Shown: positions 3,941-39,684 of the stretch, piece after piece
How the letters are laid out: each line of letters starts with the position of its first letter
Position numbering within the stretch: the first letter of the stretch is position 1
From: Nitrospinaceae bacterium
GTDB lineage: Bacteria; Nitrospinota; Nitrospinia; Nitrospinales; JACRGP01
DNA: 64,000 nucleotides
Direction of reading: 5' to 3'
Assembly (NCBI GenBank): GCA_029261575.1
Contig: JAJDBD010000085.1
Span: 1 to 64,000 of the forward strand
The notes under the pieces: generated by a model
The model's input: only the letters and a program-made list of their open reading frames with translations
What the model was told of the DNA's origin: nothing
Database searches by the model: none
Program-made: the position numbers and the translations under genes

Positions 3941-6900
3941 TGCCGCGACGAACCGATATAAAAAAAATATTATTGATAGGGTCCGGTCCCATTGTCATTG
4001 GCCAGGCTTGCGAGTTCGACTATTCCGGAACCCAGGCCTGCAAAGCGCTGATGGAGGAAGGTTACGAGGTGATACTGGTCAACAGCAATCCGGCGACCAT
4101 TATGACCGATTCTGATTTTGCGACCAAAACTTACATCGAGCCGGTGACGCCTGAAATGGTGGAGTTGATAATCGCCAAAGACCGACCCGACGTTTTGTTG
4201 CCCACCATGGGCGGCCAAACCGCCTTGAACACCGCTATTGCTCTGGCGAAATCCGGGGTTTTAGAGAAATACAACGTGGAATTGATCGGCGCGGATATCG
4301 CCGCCATTAATAAAGCTGAGGATCGGAAGCTGTTCAAGGAAGCCATGTTGCATATCGGCATGAAGGTGGCTCCCAGCGGCTACGCGCATTCGACAGAAGA
4401 GGCCGTGGAGATTGTGCGGGAAACCGGGTACCCGGCCATCATTCGACCCTCGTTTACTCTGGGCGGCGTCGGCGGAGGAATCGCCCACACAGAGGAGCAA
4501 TTGATCCACCTGACGGAATGGGGATTGAAAGCCAGCCCCTCTGCCGAAGTCCTGATTGAAAAATCCCTGTTGGGTTGGAAAGAATACGAACTCGAAGTGA
4601 TGCGGGACCGTAAAGACAACGTGGTGATCGTTTGTTCGATCGAAAATTTCGACCCGATGGGCGTCCACACTGGCGACAGCATCACCGTGGCGCCCGCGCA
4701 AACGTTGACCGACAAGGAATATCAGATATTGCGCGACGCTTCTTTGGATATTATCCGGGAAATCGGCGTGGAGACCGGGGGATCAAATATACAGTTTGCG
4801 GTGAATCCCGAAAACGGCGAACTCCTCGTCATTGAAATGAACCCGCGAGTGTCGCGCAGTTCCGCGCTGGCTTCCAAGGCGACCGGCTTCCCCATCGCTA
4901 AAATCGCGGCCAAACTGGCCGTCGGTTACACGCTGGACGAAATCCAGAACGATATTACCCGCGTCACTCCGGCGTCGTTTGAACCCACCATTGATTATTG
5001 CGTTGTGAAAATTCCCAGATTCACTTTTGAAAAATTTTCCAAAACTTCCGGCATTCTTTCCACCCAGATGAAGTCGGTCGGCGAAGTCATGGCCATTGGA
5101 AGAACGTTCAAGGAATCTTTGCAAAAAGCCCTGCGCTCTTTGGAAATCGGCGTGAGCGGACTGGATGAACATTTTAAATACGACATTGAAGATTCCACTC
5201 ACGACCGGGACGCCCAGAAAGAGAAAATCCGCAGTCTCCTTAAAGAACCCTATTGGGAAAGAATATGGATGGTGGCCGCAGGATTGCGCCGGGGGCTTTC
5301 CATTGACGAGGTCAACAAAATAACGGGGATCGACCTTTGGTTTCTGCAAAACCTCAAAGAAATCGTGGACTTTGAAGTCGTCATTCAGGGAAAGGGAGAT
5401 TTTAAAAATCTGGATAGCGACCTTTTGCGAAAGGCCAAGCAAATGGGATTTTCAGACAAATATCTCGCCGGCCTTTTAAACTGCCAGGAAGCGAACGTTG
5501 CCGAGACAAGGGAAAAATTCAATATCCGACCGGTCTTCAAGCGCGTCGACACCTGTGGCGCAGAATTCGAAGCGTACACGCCTTATTTATATTCCACCTA
5601 CGAAGAGGAATGCGAGGCCAATCCGACCCGGAAAAAGAAAATCATGATCCTGGGCGGCGGACCCAATCGAATCGGCCAGGGGATTGAATTTGATTATTGT
5701 TGCGTCCATGCCGCCTTCGCCTTGAAGGAGGACGATTTCGAAACCATCATGGTGAATTGCAATCCGGAAACCGTGAGCACGGATTACGACACCTCCGACC
5801 GTCTGTACTTCGAGCCTTTGACGTTTGAGGACGTCATGGCCATTGTGAACATTGAAAAACCCGACGGGGTGATCGTTCAGTTCGGCGGGCAGACGCCGCT
5901 GAAGCTGGCGTTGTCGCTGGAAAAAGCGGGGGTCCCCATAATTGGAACCAGTCCTGAAAACATCGACCGCGCGGAGGACCGCAAACGGTTTAAAGAAGTT
6001 TTGGAAAAACTGGATTTAAAACAATCCCTGAGCGGCACGGCAACTTCCCAGCAGGAGGCCGAAAAAATTGCCTTGGAAATTGGATTTCCCGTATTGGTTC
6101 GTCCTTCGTATGTTTTGGGCGGGCGATCTATGGAAATCGTTTATAACCTCGAAAACCTCAGGCGTTATATGAAAACCGCTTTAAAAATGTCTCCCGATCA
6201 CCCCATCCTTATCGACCAGTTCTTGCAGGACGCCGTTGAGTTGGACGTCGATGCCTTGTCGGATGGAGAAACGGTGGTGATCGCCGGGGTGATGGAGCAC
6301 ATCGAGGAGGCCGGCGTGCATTCCGGAGACAGCGCTTGTTCACTGCCGCCTTTTTCCGTCGACCAGGATTGCATCCGGCAAATCAAAATTCAGACGGCGG
6401 CTCTGGCCAGGGAGCTTGGAGTGGTGGGATTGATCAATATTCAATTCGCCGTCAAAAGCGGAGAAGTCTATATCATAGAGGTGAACCCGAGAGCCTCCCG
6501 CACCGTGCCCTTTGTCAGTAAAACCATAGGAGCGCCGCTGGCTAAAATTGCCGCTAGGGTGATGGCGGGCAAAACCTTAAAGGAACTGGGCTTCACCGAG
6601 GAAATAACTTTTGATCACATTTCCGTTAAGGAATCGGTTTTCCCTTTCATCAAGTTTTCCGAGGTCGATATTTTATTGGGTCCGGAAATGAAATCGACCG
6701 GAGAGGTGATGGGAATCGATTCCAGCTTTGGACGCGCGTTTGCAAAATCACAGTTGGCCACGGGCGTGGAACTTTCGCCCAGCGGCACGGTGTTCATAAG
6801 CGTTAAGGATAAAGACAAGCCGGGTTCGATAAAATTGGCGGAAGGTTTTCGCGATCTTGGTTATCAGTTGACAGCCACTTCAGGAACGGCCAAATATTTA

Positions 6901-35905: not shown

Positions 35906-35924
35906 GATAACAATTCTCATTATT
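35906..35924 (+). promoter_or_regulatory. Fur box upstream of the FTR1-cytochrome gene
   Basis: GATAACAATTCTCATTATT matches the 19-base Fur consensus GATAATGATAATCATTATC at 14 positions. It overlaps the predicted start of transcription, so iron-loaded Fur should block initiation. A Fur-family gene is present at 60256. Confidence 0.75.
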
Positions 35925-36004: not shown

Positions 36005-38110
36005 ATGAAACAAATTATCTTTCTCCTTTGGACCTTTTTGATACTATCCGGAACAAATTCTCCCGCCTTCGCAAAAAGCCAATCCACCGAAACGACCGTC
36101 AAAAAAATCGTGATGATGCTGGATATTGTCGTCAAAGAGTACAAAGAAGGCATTTCCGAAGGAAAAATAATAAATGAAGCCGAATACGAAGAAAGCCGAT
36201 TGTTTTTAGAGCAAGCCCAGGAAAGATTCGGGCGGGTCTCCGAGAGCCTGGATAAATCCTCGGAGCCGGTCAAACAAAAGTTTTCCGAAGTCGAGGTCAA
36301 AATAAAATCAAAAACCAACCCCGACCAGATTCAAATAGACGTCGAGCAAATCCAGTCGGAAATTTTAAATTTGTTTGGAGTGAAAATCGAATACGCTCCC
36401 AGGGAACCGGTTTCACTGGACCAAGGCAAATTAATTTACGAATCCAATTGCAAGGTCTGCCATGGCTTGACCGGAAAGGGCGATGGACCCATTGCGTCTC
36501 AACTGGACCCGCGGCCCGCGATTTTGGCCAACCCTGCAATCACCGGCGACGCGGAGACAACCGCCTACGATAATTTTAAGATCATCAATGTTGGCATTGC
36601 CGGAACGGGAATGACCGACTGGTCGAAAGTCCTGTCGGAAACCGACATTTGGAATGTTTCCTATTACATCCGTACTTTTTCCAACGAGAACGTGAAACTG
36701 CCGTCCGTTTCCGCCCTGGGCGGCGACCCGGACAAAGAATATCAAGCCATATTGACCGAGGTAGAAAACGTTCTGGATCGCAGCCTGGAATCCTTTAAAA
36801 ATTCCCAAATCCAGGACGCGGGGGAACAGGCTTCCGACTCTTACCTGGTTTACGAAAAGGTGGAACGGAATCTGTTGACTAAGCGAAAGGAACTGGCCCT
36901 GCGACTGGAATCGGCATTCGGCAGGTACCAGGGAGAGATCAAACGAAAGGCGTCGCTGGAACAGGTTCAGGGAATATACCAAAACATTAAAAACGACCTG
37001 GAACTTGCCCGCGAGGCCCTGGATAAAAACGTCGGTTTTTCCGGACTGTTCATTCAATCGCTTTCCATTATCGTCCGCGAGGGTTTCGAAGCCATATTGG
37101 TGATCGCCGCCCTAATCACTTTTCTGGTCAAATCCCGAAACAAAGACAAGACCAAATCAATTTGGATCGGGATGGGGCTTGGAATATTTGCCAGTTTTAT
37201 CACCGCATACATTCTTCAAGAAATCCTTGAGGTGTCCTCCGAAAACAAGGAAGTGATGGAAGGCTGGATCATGTTGATTTCCGTGGCAGTCCTTTTTTGG
37301 GTCAGCTACTGGTTGATTTCAAAAATCCAGACCCACCGATGGCAAAGCTATATCACGAGCAAAATGCAGGAAGTCGTTTCCACTGGAAGCGCGTATACCC
37401 TGGGGCTGGTGGCGTTTCTTTCCGTTTACCGCGAAGGATTCGAGACCGTGCTTTTTTACAAAGCGCTCTATACCTATTCCGGAACCGAGACCGGCGGCAT
37501 CCTTCCCGGATTTTTTGCGGGATGCGTTATCCTGATCGTGGTTTTTTACGCCATCAACAAACTGGGGTTGAGAATTCCCGTAAAATGGTTCTTCACCGTC
37601 ACCAGCATTTTTCTCTATTACATGGCCTTCACCTTCATGGGCAAAGGCTTGCACGAGTTGCAAATGGGCCAATTATTGGTCATGACTCCGGTTCCGTGGG
37701 CGCCAGAGGCGCACTGGTTGGGCATGTACCCCACCCTGGAAACCTTTGCGGGTCAGTTTGTTCTGATCGCCGCCTTTGTCTTCGCCCTGATTTATACCTT
37801 TATCATCAAATCGCAAATAAAAACTCAGGAAATTAAAAACGAAACCCGTAGTTTATTTTCGGGTATTTCTGCGGTTCACGACCTGGTCAATCACATATCA
37901 AACCATACCAAGCGATGCGAATTATTCCTAAAGGATACCCAGGACCAGGACTTGAAAGAACTGGCCATTCATCTTGGAGAAATCCACGACAAGGTCCATG
38001 AGCTTTCCGATCACGTTCGTTATGTGGAAAGCCAATTGATGGATGAATACGACGAACTGGATCTTGCTATATCCCAGGATTCCGCCAAGGAGGCCAAGGA
38101 ATTGCCTTGA
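36005..38110 (+). CDS. FTR1-family iron permease fused to a cytochrome c domain
   Basis: 701 residues from ATG 36005 (signal [22 protein letters not shown]; the track start 35969 lies before it). Order: periplasmic helical region (30-120); cytochrome c with CKVCHG (Cys149/Cys152/His153) and candidate axial Met203; a helical linker; then the FTR1 permease with both iron-binding motifs, REGFEA at 358 and REGFET at 476, in about seven membrane helices; and a cytoplasmic helical tail from about 610. FTR1 permeases pair with ferrous-iron oxidation, and the fused haem could carry that electron. The tail resembles that of the next protein. A Fur box and promoter lie upstream. Confidence 0.93.
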
Positions 38111-39684
38111 AGGTCCGTTCCTCAAAACAATCCAGAATATGGCACAAGTGGACGGGATTGGTATCGAGTATTTTTGTGTTTATATTGTGCGTTTCCGGCA
38201 TTCCCCTCATGCATTACGAGGAATGGAATCTTGCCGACGTCCGCGTTTCCAGCCGCTACCTTCCTAAAAAATATTTTCAGGTCAAGGGACAAAATCCAAC
38301 CATCCAGGCCCTGGCCGTTTCCCCTTCCAATCCTTCCCTCCTGTTCGCCGGAGCCAACCACGGTTTGTTCAAATCCATGGACGGCGGGCAAACCTGGGAA
38401 CCCAAAAACGAAGGACTTTTTAATCTCGACGTTCATTCCATAACTCTCGATCCGGCGCGTGCCGGCGTCGTCTATCTGGGAACGGGAAAGGGGATTTTCA
38501 AGTCGGAGAACGACGGGGAAAACTGGACGCAATGGTTCGAAGAGTCTACGGGACTTCCCGGAGGGAGAGTCAATCACATTTTATTGGACCCACGCGACCC
38601 GGATACTTTATACGCCTCCACGTCCGACGGTTTTTATCTGTCCGACGACAGTGGAGAGTTCTGGGTGCAAAAGTCTGCTGGCGACTTGCCTGGAAATGGC
38701 CTGGACGTTCGAGCGGCGCGGTTTTTATTTCCCGACAAAAATGATCTGTTCATTGGTACGGACGCCGGCGCTTTTCGTCGCGAGGATGGAGGCGATTCCT
38801 GGGAAAGAAAATGGACCGAGGGGCCGGAAAGGATTCTGGATTTTATATCGACCGGCGCCGATTCCGAATTTTTTTATGTCGGAACGGAGAATGGATTTTA
38901 TAAATCCTTCAATAAAGGGGTTCACTGGATTCAGGATAAAACCTTTGAGGACCTTGCCGTTTCGCAAGTCTATTTGGATCCTCTCAACCCTTCGGCTTTA
39001 TACCTGGTCGCGGGGGGTGGGATTTATTTCAGCGCCGACGGCGGCGACCGCTGGCAAACAAGTTTCCCGGACCGCGACACAATCAAGGGCGACTTCACCC
39101 CGTCTCCGGATTTGACCGCGACGAAATTCCTCATCACTGCCGGCCCAAAACCTGTATGGTTTTTGGGATCCACAGGCGGGTTACTGCTTTCTTACGATCA
39201 GGGCGCGACCTGGATTCCGAAGCGCCTGGAAGTTGCGGGTAACAAAAACGGCGAACCGGAAAAGACCATGGATATGGTCAAACTGTTCACCGAGATTCAT
39301 ACCGGCAGGATATTCGGCTCTTATGCTTATCTGCTCGTCGACGTCGCCACCCTGGGATTGATTTTTTTAATTTTTACCGGAATAAAAATCAGCTTTCATA
39401 GAAGGCAGGCAGCCCAGAAAATCCAGAAAAAACTTTTGGAGGCGCAAGACGAAGAGGATGCGGTGGACGCGCTAATAAACGTTCAGGAAACCGCTTACGA
39501 TCTCTCCAGGGAAAGCAGTCAAATCCACGACATGATCGAACAGATCGAAGATCATTTAGGGAAATGTAAAAACGTTTATATGAAAAAGGAAAAGAAGGAA
39601 ATTGAGGAAGTCGATCGCCACGTCCATATTCTGGACGCCAAGATACAGGGGCTTATGAGCCGATTGAAAGAACTTGGGGAATGA
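38107..39684 (+). CDS. PepSY-TM-like membrane protein with periplasmic Asp-box (BNR) repeats
   Basis: 525 residues. The N-terminus ([28 protein letters not shown]) matches the first helix of PepSY-TM/iron-reductase-like proteins. A beta-propeller-like region follows with about seven Asp-box repeats: [62 protein letters not shown]. Then [31 protein letters not shown] as a second membrane helix with a His, and a charged helical tail. TTG 38107 overlaps the FTR1 stop (TTGA), so it is coupled to the permease. A role in ferric/ferrous redox or sensing is inferred. Confidence 0.85.

Follow-up and report, generated by a model that had tools for sequence, protein, structure and literature searches.

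The window, as the whole 64,000-nucleotide stretch analysed here is called, comes from a bacterium of the phylum Nitrospinota, in the order of Nitrospina. On its forward strand a gene for a cytochrome c/FTR1-type permease is followed by that of a membrane partner protein, and both products end in the same kind of tail (Table 1). The pair stands apart: no other same-strand gene lies close to it, and both flanking neighbours are on the opposite strand, the upstream one being a carboxypeptidase Taq-like gene. The Fur-box-like site in front of the permease is kept 5′ of most FTR1 orthologues, scoring 14-17/19 and lying mostly 90-160 bp before the start; shuffled controls have a median of 11-12 and a maximum of 12-15. 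No such site was found upstream of FTR1 in genus g9, in G018 and in a few others. Because the reading frames overlap by 4 bp, have no close same-strand neighbour and sit behind a conserved Fur-like site, they form a two-gene, probably iron-regulated operon, which agrees with the description of coupled genes of an iron-uptake operon in the initial annotation. A second Fur-box-like site (15/19) occurs at 5631-5649 of the window.

Table 1. Position of the two genes, their domains and the upstream site in the window
Feature	Coordinates	Strand	Remarks
Fur-box-like site GATAACAATTCTCATTATT	35906..35924	+	15/19 against the Fur consensus; ~100 bp 5′ of the FTR1 ATG
Cytochrome c/FTR1-type iron permease, 701 aa	36005..38110	+	ATG start at 36005
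c-type cytochrome domain, residues 140-224	36422..36676	+	C149-x2-C152-H153; C149, C152, H153 invariant
FTR1 permease domain	37064..37669	+	Both R-E-G-F-E motifs (358-362, 476-480) intact
His-ladder hairpin copy 1, FTR1 613-690	37841..38074	+	Helix 1: H625, H630, H634, C638; helix 2: H656, D/H661, H665
Partner, 525 aa	38107..39684	+	TTG start at 38107, overlaps FTR1 stop
Partner membrane helix 1	38137..38214	+	Conserved H13 (cytosolic edge) and H36 (periplasmic edge), each 39/40
Periplasmic Asp-box beta-propeller	38299..39231	+	Pfam, PDB profile and Foldseek matches
Partner membrane helix 2	39298..39396	+	Conserved H398 (TEIHTGR), 37/37
His-ladder hairpin copy 2, partner 465-525	39499..39681	+	H474, Q479, H483, C487; H505, D510, Q514

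The permease consists of a signal-like N-terminus, a helical N-domain, a cytochrome c, the FTR1 membrane domain and the tail. Pfam recognizes FTR1 (7.6e-25) and Cytochrome_CBB3 (4.8e-9); the FTR1 iron permease profile (PF03239) is passed with 88.2 bits at a gathering cut-off of 25.3, and the EfeU equivalog NF041756 gives 110.4 bits, below the NCBIfam cut-off of 255. Orthologues across the order are 50-82% identical, and R358, E359, E362, R476, E477 and E480 are invariant in 38 of them. Iron is the putative transported substrate, to which the conserved Fur-like box points indirectly. The same combination of an N-terminal cytochrome c with an FTR1 domain is found in plasmid-borne permeases, such as RMET_RS30265 at the PbrT position of Cupriavidus metallidurans pMOL30 and proteins on Shewanella, Caulobacter and Acidovorax plasmids, which are 27-29% identical to the window FTR1 over ~590 residues. 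In contrast to the window protein, the four examined are 638-651 aa long, stop directly behind the final membrane helix and lack the tail, and no PepSY/Asp-box gene adjoins them. The EfeU/Ftr1 permeases (PF03239, TIGR00145, NF041756) share the permease domain with both REGFE motifs, whereas the window FTR1 has a fused cytochrome c and a His hairpin and lacks adjacent EfeO/EfeB genes. FTR1/EfeU proteins have seven membrane helices and the cytochrome c necessarily lies outside, so the tail of FTR1 should lie in the cytoplasm. The AF2 model of the FTR1 membrane domain is poor (pTM 0.34).

The second gene product had been labelled an Asp-box protein. An Asp-box propeller is indeed present, but the frame of the protein is PepSY_TM, with one helix at each end of the propeller. 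As read from its sequence, the partner is a two-helix PepSY_TM protein with an Asp-box (YCF48/sortilin-like) propeller inserted in the periplasmic loop, plus the tail. It exceeds the gathering scores of PepSY_TM (PF03929; 3.2e-10, 40.7 bits against 28.8) and of the Asp-box (BNR) profiles Sortilin-Vps10 (1.1e-12, 48 bits against 33) and PSII_BNR (2.5e-12, 47.1 against 27), and PepSY_TM_like_2 matches residues 387-433 with an E-value of 0.0015, under the curated cut-off. In the PDB the propeller matches profiles of GH74 xyloglucanases, YCF48 and sortilin, and Foldseek finds YCF48 (5ojp, E 1.1e-13). H13, H36 and H398 are conserved; a two-haem arrangement would need a fourth His, and the partner monomer has none that is conserved. 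The partner gene is found only adjoining FTR1.

The origin of this architecture is indicated by a simpler protein. Four genomes of family f9, where FTR1 is absent, have a tailed two-helix PepSY_TM protein of ~215 aa encoded beside an FMN-binding protein; it scores 27.9 bits with PepSY_TM, just under the cut-off of 28.8. When the propeller is left out, hhalign aligns the window partner collinearly with the f9 protein across the two helices and the tail (E 2e-20, or 3.3e-14 for the helices by themselves), and the partner can therefore be regarded as a tailed two-helix PepSY protein that took a propeller insertion. The f9 unit itself (L140 1293-2493, L141 3992-5216, L142 358-1600, L143 607-1816) has a porin-like gene adjoining where the contig shows it, and gives the impression of a membrane electron-transfer pair not described so far.

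The partner shares PepSY_TM helices with conserved His with the PepSY_TM reductases FoxB, VciB, CrpH and FsrB and with flavin-linked PepSY-like systems. Unlike the reductases it has two membrane helices, three conserved His and an added C-terminal His hairpin, and its periplasmic loop is an Asp-box propeller where FoxB-like haem reductases have periplasmic PepSY domain(s). The propeller resembles those of YCF48, F510_1955, GH74 and sortilin in fold, by sequence and by Foldseek, but differs from them in lying between two PepSY_TM helices and falls under the curated NCBIfam equivalog cut-offs. Since propellers of this type are periplasmic and the residues that follow helix 2 agree with the positive-inside rule, the partner tail should also be cytoplasmic. 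The cytoplasmic location that the initial annotation expected for both tails thus agrees with the family topology of FTR1 and with the build of the partner.

The window tails carry H625-D626-x7-H634-x3-C638-x17-H656 in FTR1 and H474-D475-x7-H483-x3-C487-x17-H505 in the partner, and align without gaps over at least 49 residues; coordinates, register, residues and spacings had all been given exactly. The window pair has 10/55 identities and a local BLOSUM62 score of 62, which is reached by 1/1000 composition shuffles, 11/2000 hydrophobic-pattern shuffles and 207/2000 heptad-class shuffles. Given the last figure, two coiled-coil hairpins of separate origin could account for this pair alone. The scores of three orthologous pairs are 83-110, and only 0-1/2000 heptad-class shuffles are as high, which rules out a chance resemblance of coiled coils. 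In a phmmer search with the window FTR1 as query several orthologous partner tails are matched with E-values from 1e-5 to 1.8e-7, and hhalign of the FTR1-tail and partner-tail profiles gives a probability of 97.1 and an E-value of 6.5e-11 over 63 ungapped columns, such E-values being approximate when effective sequences are few. The two tail families are only ~20% identical, yet six conserved His/Cys stand at identical offsets of 0, 5, 9, 13, 31 and 40, counted from H625 and H474. On these comparisons the tails are one homologous domain of ~60-65 residues with a predicted helix-turn-helix form, and both probably descend from one module. The claim that they share a domain is thereby borne out at the level of orthologue profiles, which match significantly, and by the His/Cys kept across orthologues.

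In FTR1, H625, H630, H634, H656 and H665 are present in 47/47 tails and C638 in 46/47, and residue 661 is D in 43 tails, the remaining 4 having H. Among 36 partner tails the His at offsets 9 and 31 are found in 36/36, the Cys at 13 in 35/36, and the His at 5, 0 and 40 in 34/36, 33/36 and 30/36, respectively; offset 36 (D510) is D in 36/36. The window genus is atypical in having Q at offsets 5 (Q479) and 40 (Q514) of the partner tail. Profile A3 recovers both tails in the window's own genome, FTR1 with an E-value of 6.5e-32 and the partner with 1.8e-23. Outside the order, in the FTR1 of G061 (a genome of another family) and in the f9 PepSY proteins, the five His and D36 are kept and the Cys is gone. 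The phylum-wide core of the tail, as it emerges from the alignments, is five His plus Asp/His, with the Cys confined to one order. The HD-x7-H-x3-C signature first proposed is part of this pattern without defining it, since the Asp after the first His varies and the Cys is absent outside the order; the His/Cys listed with it are conserved, but those at offsets 5 (H630) and 40 (H665) had been missed.

AF2 predicts a helix-turn-helix for both tails with moderate confidence (pLDDT about 50-75), the helices spanning 578-643 and 648-690 in FTR1 and 452-491 and 496-524 in the partner, with loops at 644-647 and 492-495. In an antiparallel hairpin turning near position 20, offsets 0/40, 5/36 and 9/31 would face each other as three possible ligand pairs, a pairing deduced from the helix boundaries. 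A single common ligand site is unlikely because position 0 points roughly away from 5 and 9 on the same helix.

No family in Pfam, NCBIfam or the PDB covers the tail; the NCBIfam comparison used the full-length proteins. Pfam scans of each tail return scattered sub-threshold coiled-coil families only, and the best PDB profile matches are GCN4 fusions (E 0.003) and MIC60 (E 0.004). Among 77 Nitrospinota genomes, a profile search finds it almost exclusively on FTR1 and PepSY proteins; further matches are weak (E 7e-4 or worse) and mostly parts of long ORFs. Two FTR1-tail peptide patterns, DTxDxDL[KQ]EL and EI[DH]xK[VI]HEL, occur only in Nitrospinota among 85,462 species genomes, although they are too narrow to exclude distant relatives, and plasmids yielded no copy. 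A description of the domain was likewise not found in the literature searched, so the initial annotation, which knew of none, is upheld, and the tail is a previously undescribed, predicted cytosolic domain.

In the 77 genomes, most members of the order carry the tail on both FTR1 and the partner. Of 55 FTR1 sequences (54 in the order plus that of G061), 40 have tail and partner, eight have the tail only, seven have neither and none has a partner without the FTR1 tail; the 40 partner loci include two that are partial at contig ends, one broken by a rearrangement and one tail-less partner (L066). The association gives a Fisher p of 3e-5, ignoring relatedness. The tail-only proteins are seven of the order, all of which keep the five His, and that of G061, which lacks the cytochrome c, lies beside P19 and a cupredoxin-like gene and has no tailed PepSY protein. 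Absences of the partner are mostly real, because the flanking genes are in place at nearly all partner-less loci, the exceptions being L039, which diverges right after FTR1, and L087, where the contig ends close downstream. At the G061 locus (L139 5134-7113, minus strand) the FTR1 N-terminus is made of two copies of a helical repeat in place of the cytochrome c, and the cluster reads P19-porin-FTR1-cupredoxin-like, near a fur gene.

Two recent lineages (G013; G034 with G065) have lost both the partner and the FTR1 tail, the FTR1 frame stopping at the base of the tail. This fits a loss of the partner first, after which the tail was dispensable. Only three supported independent pairs bear on the coupling of tail and partner (sign test p 0.25), so the co-loss has no formal significance. 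Deviations at conserved FTR1 tail sites number 10 in the seven partner-less and 33 in the 40 partnered sequences, unadjusted for relatedness, and G018 has one Cys-to-Ser in the tail; the trend, which would point to relaxed constraint after loss of the partner, is weak and carries no weight here. The tail looks ancestral to the two-helix PepSY_TM protein and common to some FTR1 permeases of the phylum. Transfer between the PepSY protein and FTR1 may have run in either direction.

To our knowledge, the supply or disposal of electrons in FTR1/EfeU permeases and the fate of iron on the cytosolic side are poorly understood. The characterised PepSY_TM proteins use membrane His to bind haem and act in the periplasm as reductases of metals or siderophores, the His of FoxB holding haems (PMC13038864, PMC11334425). 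PepSY-like genes cluster with those of FMN-binding proteins and iron transporters, a neighbourhood linked to transmembrane electron transfer (PMC8238504). These two properties make a redox protein held beside FTR1 the best reading of the locus. At about even chances, we favour a His-ladder hairpin that self-associates, docks FTR1 to the redox-type partner and has iron or haem as its ligand. The hairpins would associate as homo- or heterodimers into a four-helix bundle under the membrane, and the bundle would hold the PepSY_TM protein beside the cytosolic exit of FTR1. There the His/Asp(/Cys) residues would take up either haem or the iron that exits the permease, which would bring the handling of electrons and of iron together at one place, and the periplasmic cytochrome c of FTR1 and the propeller of the partner would act on the opposite face of the membrane. 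Docking, ligand binding and redox coupling with its direction are what we infer from sequence and gene context. Pairing of the subunits through their tails, suggested by the initial annotation, is plausible, as the FTR1 tail is never absent where the partner is present; its other suggestion, that the tail may bind metal or haem, fits the invariant His ladder. In an unlikely, more specific version, the bundle is a mixed one of FTR1 with a two-helix membrane haem protein and physically ties iron transport to electron transfer across the membrane, at the point where iron leaves the channel on the cytosolic side. If true, this would answer how FTR1 systems reduce imported ferric iron.

The leading alternative is a ligand-binding module that needs no hetero-pairing to act. 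The hairpin would then be a self-contained cytosolic iron/metal or haem module (a sink, a chaperone-like relay or a sensor), active as a monomer or homodimer, and its two copies need not touch; this has less in its favour than docking but is a serious contender. All 47 FTR1 tails in the order have the five His, and their retention in the seven partner-less ones favours a role without the partner. Genomes with a single kind of carrier (G061 with only a tailed FTR1, the seven partner-less genomes, and the four of f9 with only a tailed PepSY protein) imply that the tail must also be able to function by itself or as a homodimer. Were the two copies independent of each other, it would be unexpected that no genome pairs the partner with a tail-less FTR1, but the independent events are few. 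Improbable by comparison is a purely structural oligomerisation coiled coil whose His/Cys are inherited without a ligand role. The heptads are clear, the window pair lies within the range of the heptad-class shuffles and the PDB and Pfam matches are all generic coiled-coil ones, but five fixed His are more than a plain coiled coil requires. At the hydrophobic core positions V, I, L, M and A replace one another, whereas the most constrained residues are His, several of them non-core and kept across the ~20% identity of the two families. Coiled coils resemble each other easily, as the 207 shuffles of the window pair illustrate, but convergence or chance likeness of two unrelated cytoplasmic helical hairpins in one genome is extremely improbable in view of the orthologue pairs, the profile match, the six shared offsets and the near restriction of the tail to FTR1 and PepSY proteins phylum-wide.

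Nitrospinota include marine nitrite oxidisers with high iron needs. The locus names a likely iron-uptake route for this phylum together with a domain absent from databases, and a conserved tail that FTR1 has in common with the redox-type PepSY_TM protein next to it, with a Fur-like site in front of the pair, is a concrete and testable handle on the handling of electrons and iron by such permeases.

Several variants occur at other loci. In genus g9 (L041, L057, L059, L066, L076) several partner tails are degenerate or missing, with the first His changed to N/Y, the Cys to F, or no tail at all; the FTR1s with a scored upstream region are without a Fur-like box. The picture there resembles a system in decay or being rewired. 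The tail-less FTR1 relatives of genus g5 (L070 4487-7030; L071 2920-5311; L072 2860-5317) have rearranged N-termini: either two cytochrome modules in tandem are part of a single 848-aa ORF, or the cytochrome and the permease are divided between two ORFs. In the single-contig genome G031 the partner is in two pieces ~1 Mb apart (C1:1411507-1411860, 357684-358190), which suggests an inversion or an assembly break.
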